A stretch of DNA of 61,070 nucleotides from Cnuella takakiae (GTDB lineage: Bacteria; Bacteroidota; Bacteroidia; Chitinophagales; Chitinophagaceae). Shown in pieces: positions 6,477 to 56,669 of the stretch; positions within the stretch are counted from its first letter, which is position 1, and each line of letters opens with the position of its first letter. Position numbers and translations under genes: made by a program. The stretch covers positions 4,407,387 through 4,468,456 of the forward strand of contig NZ_MTFE01000010.1 of assembly GCF_001953305.1 (NCBI RefSeq), written 5' to 3'. Under the pieces are notes generated by a model. The model was not told where the DNA came from and searched no databases. It saw only the letters and a list, made by a program, of their open reading frames with translations.

Positions 6477-6512
6477 ATTGATGGGGAAAATGATCTATGG
6501 CGAAGTTCGGGA

Positions 6513-6545
6513 AACCGCAGATTTGTACGATTATAATTGATAAAA
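6513..6545. repeat. Solitary AACCGCAGATTTGTA repeat arm (family 3)
   Basis: AACCGCAGATTTGTACGATT followed by A/T-rich sequence matches one arm of the family-3 elements at 24.9, 38.7 and 46.0 kb. No inverted partner is visible nearby. Confidence 0.65.
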
Positions 6546-18356: not shown

Positions 18357-21300
18357 CTATGCGGCAACGCCCACTACCTGCTTGTGCATATGCTGCAGGA
18401 AACGCAGCAACTCGCCCATGCCTTTTACCGGCTCCACTACCAGCAAAAAGTTCTTACCCGATTGTTTCAGGCGGGCCTTGTTGGTGCCCGTTTGCACATA
18501 ATCAAGTATAGCCTTAAAGGTATCCGATTCAAAATACGGCGAGTCGGGGCGGTTAATAAAGAAGCAACGCAGGGTATCGTCTTTCAACGACATTTTTTCA
18601 AAACCCAGCTCCACTGCCAGCTTGCGGCAGCGTACGGTGATAAAGAGGTCCTTAACAGGCTGGGGCACATCGCCAAAGCGGTCGTGGAGTTCGGCCTGCA
18701 TGGCCTCCAGTTCTTCTTCCGTTTCGCAGTTGTCGAGGCGGGTGTATAGAGAAAGGCGCTCCGTGATATTCTCCACGTAGCTATCCGGGATCAGGATCTC
18801 CAGGTCGGTATCGATGGTACAGTCCTGCACGAAATCATCCTGCTTGGAAATTTCCTCTTTGAACAGGTCTTTGAACTGGGTGCGCTTCAGTTCGCGGATA
18901 GCTTCGTTCAATACTTTCTGGTACATCTCAAAACCGATCTCCGCCATAAAACCACTTTGCTCACCACCCAGCAGGTTACCGGCACCACGGATGTCCAAAT
19001 CGCGCATGGCGATCTGGAAACCGGAGCCCAGTTCCGAGTGCTGCTCCAGGGTCTGGAGGCGCTTGCGGCTGTCGTTGGGAAGGGTGCTCATGGGCGGCGC
19101 CAACAGGTAACAGAAGGCCTTCTTGTTGCTGCGGCCTACGCGGCCCCGCAATTGGTGCAGGTCGCTCAGGCCAAACTGGTGCGCGTTGTTGATGATAATG
19201 GTATTGACGTTCGGAATGTCCACACCGCTTTCTACGATATTGGTACACACCAGCACATCGTATTTCTTATCAATAAAATCGAGGATATGCTCTTCCAGCT
19301 CGTGGCCTTCCATTTGGCCATGGGCAAAACCAACGGACAGGTCGGGGCACAAACCCTGTATGAGCGAAGCCATTTCCGGCAAACCGTTTACCCGGTTATG
19401 GATAAAGAATACCTGCCCGCCCCTTTCGGTTTCAAAGTAAATGGCATCACGGATAAAATCTTCCTGGAACACCTTTACCTCTGTTTGAATGGGCTGGCGG
19501 TTGGGCGGTGGCGTGTTGATGATGCTTAGATCGCGGGCACCCATCAGCGAAAACTGCAGGGTACGCGGAATGGGCGTTGCCGTAAGCGTCAGTGCATCCA
19601 CGTTGGTGCGGAAGGTCTTGATCTTTTCCTTGTGGGCTACGCCAAACTTCTGCTCCTCATCCACGATGAGCAGGCCGAGGTCTTTGAACTGTACATCTTT
19701 GGCCAGGATGGCATGCGTACCCACCAGGATATCGATCTTGCCTTCCTTCAACTTTTGGAGGGTTTCCTTTTTCTCCTTGCTCGTTTTAAAACGGTTGATA
19801 AAATCCACCGTCACGGGGAAATCTTTCAGGCGGTCCTTAAAGGTTTTGTAGTGCTGGAAAGCCAGGATGGTAGTAGGCACCAGCACGGCGGCCTGCTTGC
19901 CGTCGAGACAGGTTTTGAAGGCGGCACGAACGGCCACTTCCGTTTTACCAAAACCCACGTCACCGCACACCAGGCGGTCCATGGGCGAAAGCGATTCCAT
20001 GTCCTTCTTCACATCAGCAATGGCCTTGCTCTGGTCGGGCGTGTCCTCGTAAATAAAGGAAGCCTCCAGCTCGGTGTACATATAGTTGTCCGGGCTGTGT
20101 TTGAAGCCTTCCTGCGCCTTACGGGCGGCGTATAATTTAATCAGGTCAAAGGCAATTTCTTTAACCTTGGCCTTGGTCTTGTCCTTGAGTTTTGTCCAGG
20201 CATCGGAACCCAGTTTGTTTACCTTGGGTACGGAACCTTCCTTGCCCGTGTACTTGGCAATTTTGTGGAGCGAGTTGATGTTTACATACAGGATATCGCT
20301 GTCCTTATAAATAAGGCGCACGGCTTCCTGCATGCGGCCGCCCACTTCTATTTTCTGCAGGCCGCTGTACACGCCTACCCCATGGTCGATATGCGTTACG
20401 AAATCGCCGGGCGATAGTTCGCGGAGGGCCCGCAGCGTGAGCGCCTTATTCTTGTTGTAGGCCTGCTTTACCTTGTACTTGTGGTAGCGCTGGAAAATCT
20501 GGTGGTCGGTATAACAAACCACTTTCAGGTCTTCATCGATAAAGCCTTCGTGGATGGCCGTGGCAATGGGCTGAAAAGTAATCTCCTCTTTAAGGTCGGT
20601 GAAGATGCTGTAAAGCCGCTCCAGCTGCTTGGGATTTTCGGCAAACAGGTTAAGCTGAAACCCTTTGCTTTCCCAGCTTTTTAGGTCGGCCATCAGCATA
20701 TCAAACTGCCGGTTGAAAGCGGGCTGCGGGCGGGTGTTGAACACAACGGCCCCTCCCCGGCCCTCCCCGGTGGGGAGGGAGGAAGGCGAAGACCCAAAAT
20801 GGACTTTATGACGTTCTTCAAGCTGGGCTACCCATTCTTTTGCAGTAGTAAATTCATCAAGGGTAACATTGGGTTTTATATGGGCGACATCTTCCTCTTC
20901 CTGCGGACGCCTGCCTTTACCTCCCCCTCCACCGGAGGGGGCCGGGGGGAGGCTTTGCAGTTCCTTTTGTAGTTCGATAAAAAACTGGAGGTTCTCTTCT
21001 TCCAACTCCAACCTTTCCTTTACCAAATCGGCATCCTGCATCCATACAACGGTGTTCTCGGGCAGGAACTCCAGCAGGGACACTTTATCCTCGTCTTCAA
21101 ACTGCGTATCCACATTGGGAATGATGCTTACCTGCAAAAGCCTCCGCTCCGACAATTGGGTCTCCGGGTCGATGATGCGGATAGAATCTACATCGTTGCC
21201 AAAGAGCTCAATCCGGTATGGTTTTTCATTACCAAAGGAGTAGATATCGATGATCCCACCCCGTACTGCAAACTGACCAGGTTCGTAAACAAAATCTGTC

Positions 21301-21818
21301 CGCTCAAATCCGAATGAAACCAACTTTTCGAACAGTTCGTCCGTATTTATTACATCATTGGTCTTAACCTGGATAATGTTTTTGGCAATGGCCTTTGAAA
21401 CGACCACCTTTTCGAACAAGGCTTCAGGATAGGTAACCAATGCGCCAACCCGTTGACCCGTTGGTGCCGAAAAGCGGGTAAGCGCTTCGGTACGCAACAT
21501 CACATGCGAGGGGTTGAGCAGGCGGTAGTTCTTTCGGTTTTTGAAAGAAGAAGGAAAGTAAAAAATGTTGAGGGCGCCGGTGAGGTTTTCCAGTGTGTTG
21601 TGGAAATAGGCCGCATCTTCGGCATCGTTGCACACAAACACGTGGTTGAGCTGGCTGCAACTGGGATGCAGGAACGCCGCTGCCGCCACAAACTGTGTGG
21701 AACTGCCCTGAAGATTTTTTACGTAGATGTTTTGGGGGGCGGACATAGTAAGCCTGTCCGCTAAAGAAAAAAGACGGGGGGTATTGATCCAGCCGTTCAG
21801 TAAGTCCGCTGTCGTCAT
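18357..21818 (-). CDS. mfd: Transcription-repair coupling factor Mfd
   Basis: A 1153-residue superfamily 2 translocase that removes stalled RNA polymerase and recruits UvrA. The N-terminal UvrB-like region (about 1-280), the RNA polymerase-interacting domain (DFVTHIDHGVGVYSGLQKIEVGG), the helicase core (GDVGFGKTEVAVRAAF, LLIVDEEQKFGV, TATPIPRTLQFSLMG, NIVESGVDIPNVNTI, QLRGRVGRSNKKAFCYLL) and the C-terminal TRCF domain are all present. Two Gly/Pro-rich stretches at about residues 288-303 and 343-357 are translated palindromic repeats (see the repeat entries), which is unusual. The promoter is nearly leaderless, with a -7 box about 9 bases from the ATG. Confidence 0.97.
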   Translation of the reverse strand: MTTADLLNGWINTPRLFSLADRLTMSAPQNIYVKNLQGSSTQFVAAAAFLHPSCSQLNHVFVCNDAEDAAYFHNTLENLTGALNIFYFPSSFKNRKNYRLLNPSHVMLRTEALTRFSAPTGQRVGALVTYPEALFEKVVVSKAIAKNIIQVKTNDVINTDELFEKLVSFGFERTDFVYEPGQFAVRGGIIDIYSFGNEKPYRIELFGNDVDSIRIIDPETQLSERRLLQVSIIPNVDTQFEDEDKVSLLEFLPENTVVWMQDADLVKERLELEEENLQFFIELQKELQSLPPAPSGGGGGKGRRPQEEEDVAHIKPNVTLDEFTTAKEWVAQLEERHKVHFGSSPSSLPTGEGRGGAVVFNTRPQPAFNRQFDMLMADLKSWESKGFQLNLFAENPKQLERLYSIFTDLKEEITFQPIATAIHEGFIDEDLKVVCYTDHQIFQRYHKYKVKQAYNKNKALTLRALRELSPGDFVTHIDHGVGVYSGLQKIEVGGRMQEAVRLIYKDSDILYVNINSLHKIAKYTGKEGSVPKVNKLGSDAWTKLKDKTKAKVKEIAFDLIKLYAARKAQEGFKHSPDNYMYTELEASFIYEDTPDQSKAIADVKKDMESLSPMDRLVCGDVGFGKTEVAVRAAFKTCLDGKQAAVLVPTTILAFQHYKTFKDRLKDFPVTVDFINRFKTSKEKKETLQKLKEGKIDILVGTHAILAKDVQFKDLGLLIVDEEQKFGVAHKEKIKTFRTNVDALTLTATPIPRTLQFSLMGARDLSIINTPPPNRQPIQTEVKVFQEDFIRDAIYFETERGGQVFFIHNRVNGLPEMASLIQGLCPDLSVGFAHGQMEGHELEEHILDFIDKKYDVLVCTNIVESGVDIPNVNTIIINNAHQFGLSDLHQLRGRVGRSNKKAFCYLLAPPMSTLPNDSRKRLQTLEQHSELGSGFQIAMRDLDIRGAGNLLGGEQSGFMAEIGFEMYQKVLNEAIRELKRTQFKDLFKEEISKQDDFVQDCTIDTDLEILIPDSYVENITERLSLYTRLDNCETEEELEAMQAELHDRFGDVPQPVKDLFITVRCRKLAVELGFEKMSLKDDTLRCFFINRPDSPYFESDTFKAILDYVQTGTNKARLKQSGKNFLLVVEPVKGMGELLRFLQHMHKQVVGVAA
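20749..20792. repeat. GC-rich palindromic element inside mfd, copy 1
   Basis: The core CCCTCCCCGGTGGGGAGGG, followed by GGAAGGCGAAG, is an interrupted palindrome in frame within mfd. On the coding strand it is read as the low-complexity peptide SSPSSLPTGEGRGGA (about residues 343-357). Confidence 0.75.
20911..20957. repeat. GC-rich palindromic element inside mfd, copy 2 (inverted)
   Basis: CCTCCCCCTCCACCGGAGGG with flanking GGCCGGGGGGAGGC is an inverted, diverged copy of the element at 20749-20792. It is read as SLPPAPSGGGGGKGRRP (about residues 288-303). About 120 bases of ordinary mfd coding sequence separate the two. Confidence 0.75.
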
Positions 21819-24900: not shown

Positions 24901-24928
24901 ATTTGTGCAAAGGGTGGTGCGCCAGTAA
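21914..24928 (+). CDS. T9SS-exported VPS10/BNR-repeat (sialidase-like) protein
   Basis: A 1004-residue secreted protein. The N-terminal signal is MHWKQIAGSIITAALLG. An acidic coiled segment follows (EDEEEEAEERAEFGRE, about 50-65), and then the Bacteroidota motif LRNPITGRIP. The main body is a BNR/Asp-box beta-propeller (for example IFRSTNGGADWTFV, IFKSTDNGVNWTKL, IMRSTDKGTTWTTV). A type A T9SS sorting domain closes it (ISVQLFNGLGQQVFREERG, LAAGVYYLRI). Propellers of this VPS10 type occur in surface glycosidase-like and protein-binding proteins; I see no sialidase RIP motif or catalytic set, so enzymatic activity is doubtful. The TAA stop overlaps a family-3 repeat. I chose the ATG at 21914 over a TTG two codons upstream. 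Confidence 0.9.
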   Translation: MHWKQIAGSIITAALLGSPFFFTRTLPETRSLSVGNWQQIKGLNEAEDEEEEAEERAEFGRERLEHEFRMLRNPITGRIPADYRQMELKIAAMIPARRAARYPWLSGIAGIEGSNTNNNYVSIGPNNVAGRSRTLAYDRRNTNILISGGTTGGIFRSTNGGADWTFVAPENDIRSVTSIVQDPTAPDIWYCGTGEVYYPTSQADIAGTFGYGIFKSTDNGVNWTKLTATIQNASGATTSQNRFDNNFDLVHRLAVHPLTGHVYAAVHNRIMRSTDKGTTWTTVLGGTQPNNVFGGLTEIYIPANGNRIFAAFSGGGPDQDNLNADRGVAGIWQSGSGDANAWTRIAGGSQGQTDSVGGWRPWGQWGRIVLTSNSAGNQLFVLYKNGQDAENGNPEADLFRCNLAATLPNRAAWTNLSAWVPDEPNFDAAGIDPYTTQFEGFNMSIDVKPNNDNIIFIGGTNVHRVHLNETDPARKFRRIGGYGGGFFPGVQTAAIYDGHRQSEDFDPHHPDNHYILHIPGNDNTIYTTSDGGIHRSATTDIADTVRWRALTNNLQTLQYQSINIIPDPEASWVIGGAQDNGTHANLDVPASKDHIRIGSGDGAAAAMSDFTKTGNNWKQAWYYSTPNGNIYRSNFDWRVTNNTLDYVNNTNTEITPNGLNDEGQWLTLFALDPDSTNHLYYTNENRLFRTKTANAVTSNGWTEITGVRGTVAGSSSFSAMALSKLSGKPNINNKRLFLGTSNGKVYRLDSADVKGPTNRPLDITPTTMTPGSYVAGIAVNPRNPDTVLVVVSNYDDANNTISNIFWTGNATAASPNWQVIDGALGAVSSQSCAIVVKSTGVEYYVGTSIGLYSTTAINGNSTSWFNEGSGMLKTAIIRSMVVRPEDNVLVIGTHGNGAFYTEIGNPISYDGSPVVPGGSGFIAYVRPTVTSGSNTTINYAVGNSTTVTRISVQLFNGLGQQVFREERGYTNGTLYLGNLAAGVYYLRIMSSDGKQKFVQRVVRQ

Positions 24929-25117
24929 CCGCAGATTTGTATGATTTTGAAGTGATTTGTATAATCTCCCTCTATAAAACAAAAGCCCTGCGCAATGCAG
25001 GGTTTTTGTTTTATAGAGGGCATTTTAGATCGGACCTTAATTACCTAAGAAAATAAAGAGGAAATAAGAACTGCCAAGCTCATACAAATCACTTCAAAAT
25101 CGTTTGAATCCGCGGAA
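24927..25117. repeat. Family-3 inverted-arm element around a terminator
   Basis: The left arm (24927-24965, AACCGCAGATTTGTATGATT then TTGAAGTGATTTGTAT) and an inverted right arm (about 25080-25117) flank a long terminator hairpin. The left arm starts inside the TAA stop of the upstream gene. Total length is about 190 bases, close to the copy at 45986-46170. Confidence 0.75.
24968..25020 (+). terminator. Very long terminator hairpin
   Basis: A 24-bp stem with a single G-T wobble and a 5-base loop: CCCTCTATAAAACAAAAGCC at the base, CCCTGC/GCAGGG at the tip. It serves the propeller protein gene and sits between the two arms of a family-3 element. Confidence 0.8.
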
Positions 25118-26042: not shown

Positions 26043-26325
26043 GAGTTAATGAGCTAATTGGATAATGTGCTAATGTGCTAATGTTCCAACAATGCCAGCG
26101 AGTTGAACCAGCTAAAATTAGAATTAGGATCTCTGTAGTCAGAATCCTGTCATGCCGAACTTGTTTCGGCATCCCCTTCTTTTCACAGACACCCCAAAGA
26201 TCGCAGGAGATTCCACAGGCATTAAGCGGGCCATCTAAACTAAAAAGCGCATGAAAAAGCGGGAGTAGCATACCACTACTCCCGCTTATCATATTAGCAC
26301 ATTATCAAATTAGCATATTACCCTA
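26043..26325. repeat. Inverted word-periodic repeat between convergent genes
   Basis: The left arm (26043-26082, words AATGTGCTAATG and GAGCTAATTGGATAATG) and right arm (about 26285-26325, words ATTAGCACATTATCAAATTA) are inverted copies. Between them are a CATGCCGAACTTGTTTCGGC hairpin motif at 26151-26172 and a terminator at 26257-26287. Confidence 0.65.
26257..26287. terminator. Terminator between convergent genes
   Basis: AAGCGGGAGTAG and CTACTCCCGCTT form a perfect 12-bp stem with a 7-base loop and a flanking A run. It can end glyS on the minus strand. Confidence 0.65.
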
Positions 26326-38730: not shown

Positions 38731-38734
38731 CCGG

Positions 38735-38990
38735 AACCGCAGATGATTATGATTTAGGAAGGGTTTGTATGATTGGAGCCCGAAAGATGTAAATGTCTTA
38801 CTTGGTTGTAAGACTTTTTTTTGGCCCTGTACAACTGCAGTATGCATTTTTTGTATTGCCTGAAGCCCTTTGCACCGTGTTTATACCATGCAAACTATCG
38901 CCTGATTTCTTGTGATCGAGGTTTTGCCAAAACTGTAACCTCTTCGAACTTCTGCATAGCAATCATTTAAAGTCATACAAATCTGCGGTT
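38735..38990. repeat. Family-3 inverted-arm element between DUF4783 gene and nadC
   Basis: The left arm (38735-38774, AACCGCAGATGATTATGATT) and inverted right arm (38953-38990, ending CAAATCTGCGGTT) are about 256 bases apart end to end. Confidence 0.7.
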
Positions 38991-39065
38991 TGCCTTTCCT
39001 TTGTAATCGACGGCCATTATTTGCAGGAAAGAAGAATAGCCAGTTGGCAAGCTCTTTGGCCTTCA

Positions 39066-39104
39066 CTCCTACAAATCATTAAATAATCATAGTAATCTGC
39101 GGTT
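39066..39104. repeat. Extra family-3 arm abutting the nadC start codon
   Basis: A third arm, in the orientation of the previous right arm, ends AATCTGCGGTT only two bases before the nadC ATG. It therefore occupies the whole ribosome-binding region. Confidence 0.7.
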
Positions 39105-39106
39105 CC

Positions 39107-40697: not shown

Positions 40698-40765
40698 GGA
40701 TGCAAAACCGATGAAACGGTTTTGCATCCATTTCACCATCTCTCCCACGGTTAAAACCGTGGGCT
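40698..40765. repeat. Family-2 element (two hairpins) after the small membrane gene
   Basis: Hairpin 1 has a 14-bp stem TGGATGCAAAACCG/CGGTTTTGCATCCA; hairpin 2 is CCCACGGTTAAAACCGTGGG (40744-40763). The spacer (CATCCATTTCA) resembles that of the copy at 56420. Hairpin 1 can act as the terminator. Confidence 0.75.
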
Positions 40766-42859: not shown

Positions 42860-43021
42860 CCCCCTGTCCCCCTAAAGGGGGAACTTAGGTCCAGCAACCC
42901 TTTTATTAACAAAGCCACTCTTTGCGGAGTGGCTTTGTTATAAATGCAATTATAACCTAGAGCATTGTGGTGTGATGGCGGACGCTCCAGCCTAAGTTCC
43001 CCCTTTAGGGGGACAGGGGGT
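42860..43021. repeat. Family-1 two-arm element, copy 1
   Basis: The left arm (42860-42891: CCCCCTAAAGGGGG then AACTTAGGTC) and inverted right arm (about 42978-43021: CTAAG, TTCCCCCTTTAGGGGG, ACAGGGGG) are 162 bases end to end. Between them lies a 13-bp terminator hairpin (42908-42939). It fills the gap between convergent apaG and gldB. Confidence 0.85.
42908..42939. terminator. Bidirectional terminator inside family-1 element copy 1
   Basis: AACAAAGCCACTC pairs with GAGTGGCTTTGTT around a 6-base loop. It serves apaG and/or gldB. Confidence 0.75.
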
Positions 43022-45985: not shown

Positions 45986-46170
45986 AACCGCAGATTTGTA
46001 TTGTTGGAAATGATTAGTATGAACGTGGTTGCTGATTACATTAGATAATCAAAGTAGGTATATACGCAAGTTTATTGCTATTGTATCCGGGCAATCAACA
46101 ACCTATGCATAAACGCAGTGTACAGCCTTAAAGTCATACAAGTTATTTCCAATCCTACAAATCTGCGGTT
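45986..46170. repeat. Family-3 inverted-arm element between nadE and the MoxR gene
   Basis: The left arm (45986-46023, AACCGCAGATTTGTATTGTT then GGAAATGATTAGTATGA) and inverted right arm (46133-46170, ending CAAATCTGCGGTT) are 185 bases end to end. The centre has no strong hairpin, unlike the copy at 24927. Confidence 0.8.
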
Positions 46171-51128: not shown

Positions 51129-51287
51129 CCCCCTGTCCCCCTAAAGGGGGAACTTAGGTCAAACATACCTTCAATGAAAACGCCCCTCCTAAAATGAGGG
51201 GCGTTGATGTAATATCGTTTATGAAAAAGAATGTGGCAGAGATAGCGGACACTCCGGCCTAAGTTCCCCCTTTAGGGGGACAGAGGG
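51129..51287. repeat. Family-1 two-arm element, copy 2
   Basis: The left arm (51129-51160: CCCCCTAAAGGGGG then AACTTAGGTC) and inverted right arm (about 51245-51287: GCGGACACTCC, TTCCCCCTTTAGGGGG) are 159 bases end to end. A different terminator hairpin lies at 51179-51205. The right arm supplies the last codons and stop of the 51272 gene. Confidence 0.85.
51179..51205. terminator. Bidirectional terminator inside family-1 element copy 2
   Basis: AACGCCCCTC pairs with GAGGGGCGTT around a 7-base loop. It serves rsgA and/or the convergent hypothetical gene. Confidence 0.75.
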
Positions 51288-51613
51288 TGTTGTTTTTGCA
51301 TTTTCAGGTTTAGTAATTTTCCTTCCAGCACGCTGGCCAGCTCTACTACTGCTTTATTTTCTTTTTTGCGGGCATGCTGCTCCCTTGTGGGAAAAAGGCT
51401 GATGCCATTATAAATGCTGTACTGGAGCGTGAGGCTGCTTTTCCCAAGGGAAAAATTCCAGTTGATGTTGTCAAAATCGTCTTCTTTACCTGTGAAACTG
51501 ACCTGGAACTGGTCGGTAAGAATGCTTGCAATTTGGTAAAAGCGGGAGAGTCCGCCATCGCTGTCAATAACGGCTTCGGTGCAGCCCAGGTCGGTGCGTA
51601 GGGTGAGGCTCAT
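51272..51613 (-). CDS. Hypothetical protein with repeat-derived C-terminus
   Basis: A 113-residue soluble protein starting MSLTLRTDLGCTEAVIDSDGG and rich in short beta-strand-like stretches (FQVSFTGKEDDFDNINWNFSLGKSSLTLQYSIYNGISLF), followed by a basic helix. I do not recognise the family with confidence. The final residues HPLSP and the TAA stop are encoded by the family-1 repeat arm, so the native C-terminus may have been altered. I chose the ATG at 51613 over one nine codons upstream. Confidence 0.7.
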   Translation of the reverse strand: MSLTLRTDLGCTEAVIDSDGGLSRFYQIASILTDQFQVSFTGKEDDFDNINWNFSLGKSSLTLQYSIYNGISLFPTREQHARKKENKAVVELASVLEGKLLNLKMQKQHPLSP

Positions 51614-51876: not shown

Positions 51877-52416
51877 TTATTTCCCGTTTTCCGCTTCGTT
51901 TACATCACCAAACCAGCCTGCATACCGCACATAGTTATTGGCAATGCGGTTGATTTCGCCGGACACTTTCTCCGGGTCAATGGTCTTAACTTTTTTGGCA
52001 GGCACACCGGCATATACCGAGTTAGCTTCGCAAACAGTGCCTTCCAGCACCACGGCACCGGCTGCAATGATGGTGTTGGAATGAATAACGGCCTGGTCCA
52101 TCACAATGGCGCCCATGCCAATCAACACATCGTCGTGCACTGTGCAGCCATGCACAATGGCATTGTGCCCGATGGAAACATTATTGCCCAATACCGTTTG
52201 CGACCGCAGGTAGGTGCAATGGATCACGGCGCCATCCTGCACGTTCACCTTATTGCCCATGCGGATGGCATTTACATCGCCGCGCACCACGGCATTAAAC
52301 CATACACTGCACTGGTCACCCATCACTACATCGCCTACAATAGTGGCGTTGGGTGCAATAAAACAATCGGCGCCCCAAGCGGGAAATTTTCCTTCTACAG
52401 GTAAGATAAGTGACAT
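51877..52416 (-). CDS. Gamma-carbonic anhydrase family hexapeptide-repeat protein
   Basis: A 179-residue left-handed beta-helix protein (gamma-CA/YrdA/PaaY type). Repeats such as NATIVGDVVMGDQCSVWFNAVVRGDVNAIRMGN, VNVQDGAVIHC, NNVSIGHNAIVHGCTVHDDVLIGMGAIVMD and SNTIIAAGAVVLEG carry the zinc-binding His residues (IHC, IGHNAIVHG). Carbonic anhydrase activity is shown only for some members. The ATG at 52416 is chosen; upstream codons are repeat-like. It is divergent from the aminotransferase, with a mirrored leader. Confidence 0.93.
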   Translation of the reverse strand: MSLILPVEGKFPAWGADCFIAPNATIVGDVVMGDQCSVWFNAVVRGDVNAIRMGNKVNVQDGAVIHCTYLRSQTVLGNNVSIGHNAIVHGCTVHDDVLIGMGAIVMDQAVIHSNTIIAAGAVVLEGTVCEANSVYAGVPAKKVKTIDPEKVSGEINRIANNYVRYAGWFGDVNEAENGK

Positions 52417-52461
52417 GGATGCGAAGATAGGGAGGACCATGGATGATGGACGATGGACCAT
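52414..52461. repeat. Mirrored leader repeat, left copy
   Basis: Together with 52658-52700 this forms an inverted repeat. Both genes begin with ATCTTCGCATCCATG preceded by CCATCGTCC words. Each copy carries a TATCTTCG sequence close to the TAnnTTTG -7 box, 7-8 bases before the ATG. Confidence 0.65.
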
Positions 52462-52657
52462 TAGTGACCTGGAGGCTGAAGGCGATACGGCTCTGACAAC
52501 CGGGGACAATAGTGCATAACAGACAGCTACAGGAAACCTAAACACAATACCAGTACTTATTTGTGCATCCTTTTAAAACCATGATTACAAAACCCTCATT
52601 CACTATTCACCATTCAGAGCATTTGCTGTTCCAGTCGTCTGCCGGCTGTTGTCCGAT

Positions 52658-52700
52658 CCATGTCCTATCGTCCATCGTCCTCCATATCTTCGCATCCATG
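52658..52700. repeat. Mirrored leader repeat, right copy
   Basis: This is the inverted partner of 52414-52461, directly upstream of and including the aminotransferase ATG, with TCCATATCTTCGCATCCATG at its end. Confidence 0.65.
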
Positions 52701-56419: not shown

Positions 56420-56669
56420 AAACCGTTGAAACGGTTTGACATCAATTTCAGATATGTCGCCGTTCCCACGGTTAAAACCGTGGGCTAACATTGGGATTGT
56501 TGTAACCATTGCCATTAAGTTGAAGAGATGTTATTTCAGGTGTTCTTTCGGTTTAAATGTTTCAACAAAAATTAATGACAACTTGCTTTCAAAATGGATG
56601 TTTGCTAGCCCACGGTTTCAACCGTGGGATTGAGACTCCATATTACACATTAAACCGTTTCAACGGTTT
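56420..56669. repeat. Family-2 inverted pair
   Basis: The left unit has hairpin AAACCGTTGAAACGGTTT (56420-56437) and CCCACGGTTAAAACCGTGGG (56465-56484). The right, inverted unit has CCCACGGTTTCAACCGTGGG (56609-56628) and AAACCGTTTCAACGGTTT (56652-56669). The 125 bases between hold no gene. It fills most of the 480-base space between creD and the next gene. Confidence 0.85.

Follow-up and report, generated by a model that had tools for sequence, protein, structure and literature searches.

The mfd gene of Cnuella takakiae contains two short, inverted palindromic arms that are translated in frame. We consider it probable that the resulting peptides are the end-arms of a palindromic mobile element of the Bacteroidota, lodged in mfd as a nuclease-less pair from a homing-like family. 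Sequence comparison makes it very likely that the mfd arms belong to a family of elements with the layout arm-DUF559-arm. A stronger yet less certain claim, to which we give slightly less than an even chance, is that these elements form a phylum-wide class in which an unspliced Vsr/EDxHD homing nuclease domain resides in conserved, often essential host enzymes (LeuRS, MetRS, MetH, AroC and others), bounded by palindromic arms that serve its movement; these arms would also spread without the nuclease, as feet-outward pairs around host DNA such as the one in mfd.

In-frame palindromic arms in mfd

The window, i.e., the whole stretch of DNA analysed (61,070 nt), contains the following features at mfd:

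18357-21818, minus strand: host gene mfd, transcription-repair coupling factor, 1153 aa (Pfam and PDB match)
20749-20782, plus strand: arm 1, type A, with foot at 20749-20758 and stem-loop at 20761-20779 (arm-model score, 66 bits)
20783-20919, minus strand: native Mfd coding sequence between the arms, not an element interior (aligns with 29 orthologues)
20920-20953, minus strand: arm 2, type B, with foot at 20944-20953 and stem-loop at 20923-20941 (arm-model score, 60 bits)

The mfd product matches the PDB Mfd structure 6xeo (E 8e-199) and has the Pfam domains UvrB_inter, CarD_TRCF_RID, DEAD, Helicase_C and TRCF. The PDB alignment leaves a gap between its two parts (residues 60-236 and 421-1077), and both arms lie in this gap. 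Each arm consists of a C-rich foot, 2 nt and a hairpin (8-bp stem, 3-nt loop), and both feet point outward. Arm 1 is composed of GCCCCTCCCC-GG-CCCTCCCC-GGT-GGGGAGGG and arm 2 of GCCTCCCCCC-GG-CCCCCTCC-GGT-GGAGGGGG. The arms are inverted, 34 nt long each and 82% complementary (28/34 identities when one is compared with the other reversed), and 137 nt separate them, rather than the 120 bases given in the earlier note. That note had described two inverted in-frame palindromes in mfd, and the reading frame is indeed open across both. Arm 2, the N-terminal arm of the protein, codes for residues 289-300 and is translated from foot to hairpin; arm 1, the C-terminal arm, codes for residues 346-357 and is translated from hairpin to foot. 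Both lie inside the peptides previously placed at about residues 288-303 and 343-357. As single-stranded DNA, the arm-bearing region folds better than 200 of 200 shuffles (z -3.6). Furthermore, a 37-nt stretch including arm 1 has a 100% identical copy at C1:1113891 in the host genome.

The peptides had been expected to be absent from relatives. Consistent with this, the 29 best mfd orthologues from the 116 other genomes of the family search were all negative in the arm test (0/29). Both arm-bearing loops differ in length among these orthologues. The residues between the arms (EEEDVAHIKPNVTLDEFTTAKEWVAQLEERHKVHFG, aligned beside EEEQDDKLIKKDVKVEEFTTADDFARDLLRHHTVYFG of a congener) align with native Mfd in all 29, so only the arms are foreign. 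This native interior rules out the proposal that an entire element, interior included, had become coding in mfd. Thus, the earlier view of palindromic insertions in a conserved gene stands in that the arms are in frame, undetected in 29/29 orthologues and repeated elsewhere in the genome, but not in its coding interior. Nor was a nuclease found in four long mfd frames inspected from 148 phylum genomes (a fifth, G471, was left out); their extra length is an upstream extension.

A complete MITE-like element with an interior turned coding does describe other loci of this genome. The arm pairs in the DNA ligase and FG-GAP genes enclose 55-nt interiors with 32/55 identical positions, compared to 27 or fewer in 2000 shuffles, and the host ligase has 44 residues (296-339) in place of 3 in an archaeal ligase (PDB match). 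The related interiors suggest that these two pairs are a mini-element. For mfd, where the interior aligns with native sequence in 29 orthologues, such an origin is hardly credible.

Arms and arm pairs across genomes

Copies of CCTCCCCGGTGGGGAGGGAG were found 11 times in the host genome with up to one mismatch (0 for the reversed control) and 23 times with up to two mismatches (3 for the reversed control). This excess over the control indicates that the mfd arms are not due to chance. An arm model built from 19 arms, which are themselves among its later matches, gave 25 matches at E<=1 and 23 at E<0.05, in agreement with the suggestion that the palindrome should recur elsewhere in the genome. 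By our count, 17 of the 23 arms at E<0.05 lie within reading frames and 6 in spacers; arms are thus commoner inside genes. Ten of the 17 are internal and seven are at gene ends, where they may be untranslated should the true start or end of the gene differ.

The arm-bearing genes identified with Pfam code for coproporphyrinogen oxidase, uroporphyrinogen decarboxylase, a MurD-like ligase, a family 28 glycosyltransferase (MurG by our reading), DNA polymerase I, a thiamine-pyrophosphate enzyme (which we read as acetolactate synthase), GSCFA, PaaB, EVE and 3-hydroxyacyl-CoA dehydrogenase. PDB matches added DNA ligase and an aminotransferase, and the FG-GAP gene was assigned by our own reading. A separate locus (L097, C1:342838) has a diverged in-frame arm pair in what looks like the gene for a type I restriction R subunit; its arms are similar to those of the metH cassette described below.

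Neighbouring arms less than 400 nt apart in the host genome all point their feet outward (7/7 pairs), with 45-176 nt between model ends, though one of the seven has a weak left arm (28.7 bits, E 0.047). The shared orientation and narrow spacing argue against two independent single-arm insertions in tolerant mfd loops, with pairing a product of coincidence or selection and no paired mechanism involved. So do the 80 loci from other genomes described below, where feet-outward neighbours prevail. Independent insertion would, on the other hand, fit the variable length of both mfd loops among orthologues and the lone arms with no close partner detected, for instance those in the aminotransferase, MurG-type, polA and GSCFA genes. 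On balance, we regard it as rather unlikely.

The interiors of the ilvD-ilvB, hemE-hemF and mraY-murD pairs consist of the gene spacer and the start of the next gene. Their nativeness was judged by position and length because the spacers diverge. We compared hemF across 14 loci, of which 3 had no match to the search pattern and 4 had hemE elsewhere; in 5 relatives with adjacent hemE and hemF genes no arms were visible by eye. A locus of congener G398 (L288) carries, by eye, another arm subtype around the spacer at the same two hemE-hemF positions used in the host, a difference that could reflect arm turnover or repeated targeting. Congener G353 likewise has another arm subtype at the ilvB position, and a similar sequence in G302 is without an arm (by eye).

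We also identified two intergenic arm pairs in the window by arm comparison:

42860-43020, arms at 42860-42889 (plus) and 42991-43020 (minus): intergenic arm pair of another subtype than the mfd arms
51129-51288, arms at 51129-51158 (plus) and about 51258-51288 (minus): intergenic arm pair of the same subtype as the 42860 pair

Arms of this type flank the host DUF559 gene at C1:4234284 and occur on the DUF559 locus L243. The interiors of the two pairs are related (score 23 versus -2 or less in 300 shuffles), and each has one terminator-like hairpin by eye. Other repeats in the window include paired or single arms starting with AACCGCAGAT (6509-6541, 24927-25115, 38733-39106 and 45986-46170), with 109-270 nt between them in three cases, which form another dispersed paired-arm family. 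There are also two long inverted pairs (52414-52700 and 26047-26320) with arms of 44 and 35 nt about 200 nt apart.

The pattern foot-NN-stem-NNN-stem gave at least 115 matches across named genomes, and the 80 that we analysed are mostly from Bacteroidota (71 by title). A stricter arm detector found 154 arms in these 80 loci and 0 in one shuffle of each locus. Among neighbours less than 400 nt apart, 36 were feet outward (7 of them overlapping symmetric palindromes), 2 feet inward and 10 in the same direction. In a Flavobacterium P-type ATPase, the stretch enclosed by two arms aligns with an ATPase of known structure. Several arms enclose a domain inside large genes, a domain that Pfam names DUF559.

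DUF559 nucleases between arms

DUF559 was hit four times in the host genome. By the arm test, two of these hits (L242 and L243) have arms on both sides; inverted hairpin repeats also occur at L244 but failed the foot test, and the last hit belongs to a helicase. The type A and B arms of mfd are on none of these DUF559 copies. DUF559 is present in 76 of 147 genomes of the host's family, and 61 of 131 hits (values copied by hand from the family listing, down to E about 3e-18) lie in open frames 300 aa or longer. We applied the arm test to 32 DUF559 loci, 3 from the host genome (all but the helicase hit) and 29 top hits from elsewhere. A left arm was found at 21 loci, a right arm at 21, both at 17 and neither at 7, compared to 3, 3 and 1 (left, right and both) in 121 shifted control windows. 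One or both arms were therefore not detected at 15 of the 32 loci. Arms in the opposite orientation were found on the left of 7 and on the right of 6 loci (1 and 0 of 121 controls), because some arms are symmetric. Of the seven loci where this test detected no arm, three (L262, L268 and L271) also had no inverted arm in a separate inspection, yet the other four (L244, L249, L265 and L270) did.

A DUF559 cassette in a leucyl-tRNA synthetase (LeuRS) gene (L273) links these elements to mfd. Its right arm is identical to mfd arm 2 at 31/34 positions and its left arm at 29/34, with foot and stem the same in the right arm; the differences are in the loop region and, for the left arm, also in the 2-nt spacer. 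The mfd pair thus has the C-rich foot and hairpin of the family, with the feet outward, and an arm sequence common to DUF559-flanking arms, but native sequence rather than a nuclease in between.

DUF559 cassettes are often found in conserved proteins. Pfam recovered the host domain in two stretches around DUF559 in MetH, MetRS, AroC (chorismate synthase), methylmalonyl-CoA mutase and a class I tRNA synthetase that we read as IleRS; it also located DUF559 within CinA, LeuRS, RecG and a UvrD-type helicase. An intron as the carrier of DUF559 was rejected after 13 loci matched no intron family in Rfam, with three tRNAs as the sole matches. Pfam listed no intein (Hint) domain for 14 DUF559 chimeric proteins, which together with the Rfam result suggests that the cassette is kept in the protein. 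On the right of the host's metH cassette (L242), and on this side only, the frame continues into the activation domain of MetH; the left junction is masked by 11 N within the left arm (L242:1430-1440). Runs of 10-11 N are present in or near arm-bearing genes at this position and near C1:770390 (L052), and the frames differ on either side, so these genes are unreadable across them.

The late site in LeuRS was part of a 30-locus motif comparison in which 5 of 30 had no motif match. By eye, this site has a nuclease-less arm pair in L154, which lacks DUF559, and arms with the nuclease in L258 and L264. Two genes (G013:C90 and G123:C3) have two DUF559 hits each in a single open frame, of 1315 and 1327 aa, and are apparently double cassettes in one gene.

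The catalytic domain of DUF559 has a predicted structure that fits the EDxHD/Vsr-like class of homing endonucleases. We modelled one domain (L205), with 10 others as the alignment and none from the host's own genome. The predicted fold (pLDDT 86) matches PDB 3hrl and the homing endonuclease I-Bth0305I (E 9e-5), and has a weak match to Vsr (E 0.046). DUF559 also matches I-Bth0305I by sequence (E 1.4e-6). In one set of 25 DUF559 domains, selection was by motif, and the motif that they have in common is therefore no evidence.

The nuclease is apparently under purifying selection: where dS could be used (3 of 9 pairs), dN/dS is 0.11-0.16, against 0.05-0.09 for the host part of the protein. dS was saturated in the other 6 nuclease pairs, and L260 and L261, which form one of the usable pairs, have very few differences between them. 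A nuclease tree of 35 of 37 chosen loci placed the MetH site in a single clade. In contrast, the site in the LeuRS editing domain required 4 label changes, of which supported branches force at least 3, and nucleases from AroC and LeuRS were intermixed. This combination points to some inheritance along with repeated arrivals. Instead of homing, inheritance or exchange together with the host gene may also account for cassettes at the same site.

Proposed mobility and possible kinship with known repeats

We propose, with somewhat better than even confidence, that DUF559 is the mobilising enzyme of the family. The nuclease, in trans for mfd, would cut or nick DNA, and the broken site would take up copies of the arms, much as homing proceeds. 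Solo arms and pairs would likewise be moved in trans, and selection would retain insertions in loops where additional residues are tolerated. Pairs that enclose host DNA could arise from one nick on each strand, at a distance of about 50-180 nt; if both nicks received the same single-stranded arm, a feet-outward pair with host DNA in between would result. We consider this paired-nick step doubtful.

Enzyme genes between inverted hairpin repeats are also found in REPtrons, which consist of a RAYT gene with flanking inverted REPs and coexist with more repeats elsewhere in the genome. The similarity does not extend to the enzyme, a Y1 transposase in REPtrons and a nuclease of the PD-(D/E)XK type here, or to the frequent in-frame insertion in host genes. 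The CCCACGGTTNNAACCGTGGG repeats in the window (40743-40765, 56464-56486 and 56608-56630) and at L049 match those around the Y1_Tnp gene at C1:584775; their sequence suggests a separate REPtron-like family with a RAYT-like Y1_Tnp.

The mfd arms could, alternatively, be REP- or BIME-type repeats moved by a RAYT (Y1 tyrosine) transposase, with the DUF559 link secondary. The foot and hairpin and the head-to-head dimers are REP-like, and the host genome has two Y1_Tnp genes. In the survey by Di Nocera et al. (2013, PMC3733652), intragenic REPs of the GTAG and CGTC families are short tailed hairpins, often in head-to-head dimers, most of them 20-100 bp apart. Some are in frame in genes, many of these for DNA repair (UvrA, Pol I and DNA ligase). 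CGTC repeats, which are reported from Bacteroidetes, have CGTC or its variants TGTC and CCTC at one end, a stem of 8-9 bp with A-T at the first two positions and a loop of 4-5 nt (PMC3733652). Our 19 aligned arms have an 8-bp stem and CCTC within the foot. Their loop is 3 nt long, the base of the stem lacks A-T, and neither an exact CGTC nor the GTAG tetranucleotide stands at their ends. The arms may be kin to the CGTC repeats and resemble intragenic REPs in being tailed hairpins, paired head-to-head and sometimes in frame in repair genes, but differ in having no GTAG or exact CGTC tail, in flanking DUF559 rather than a RAYT, and in the native interior of the mfd pair. Neither of the two host Y1_Tnp genes is flanked by the arms; both are surrounded by different repeats (CCCACGGTTTCAACCGTGGG and CCGCCGGTTGCACCGGCGGCT), and for this reason a RAYT origin of the arms was rejected. 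Overall, we rate the REP/RAYT alternative as distinctly unlikely.

The nuclease has parallels among homing endonucleases. DUF559 is akin in fold and sequence to I-Bth0305I (PMC3943268; PDB 3r3p), and gene sites are repeatedly occupied in both; I-Bth0305I sits in a group I intron, whereas the 13 DUF559 loci matched no intron family. A DUF559 protein is described in a Caulobacter VsrA paper, whose text does not contain the stem "palindrom" (PMC12907096).

The Rickettsia palindromic elements (RPEs), to which the earlier note had likened the mfd palindromes, are in-frame palindromic DNA kept in the protein of conserved genes, as are the arms described here. They are known from another phylum than the host, and the likeness is one of outcome. 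We know of no nuclease partner for them. The parallel is fair in this respect, but the note did not foresee that the relatives found here carry a DUF559 nuclease.

Intragenic REPs, head-to-head dimers in repair genes, RPEs and EDxHD-type homing endonucleases are already known (PMC3733652, PMC3943268). Among the papers listed in searches of the open-access literature, none joins DUF559 to palindromic arms by title or abstract, and none was listed for a DUF559 nuclease that is bounded by arms and retained in frame in host proteins.

In-frame palindromic insertions pose an old puzzle as to who moves them and how essential proteins survive. Complete elements have a candidate enzyme between their arms, often in frame with the host protein, which makes mobility directly testable. 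They also offer natural examples of proteins with an entire additional nuclease domain, or with Gly/Pro arms in loops. If true, the proposed mobility would explain how a common class of hairpin repeats in the Bacteroidota arose.
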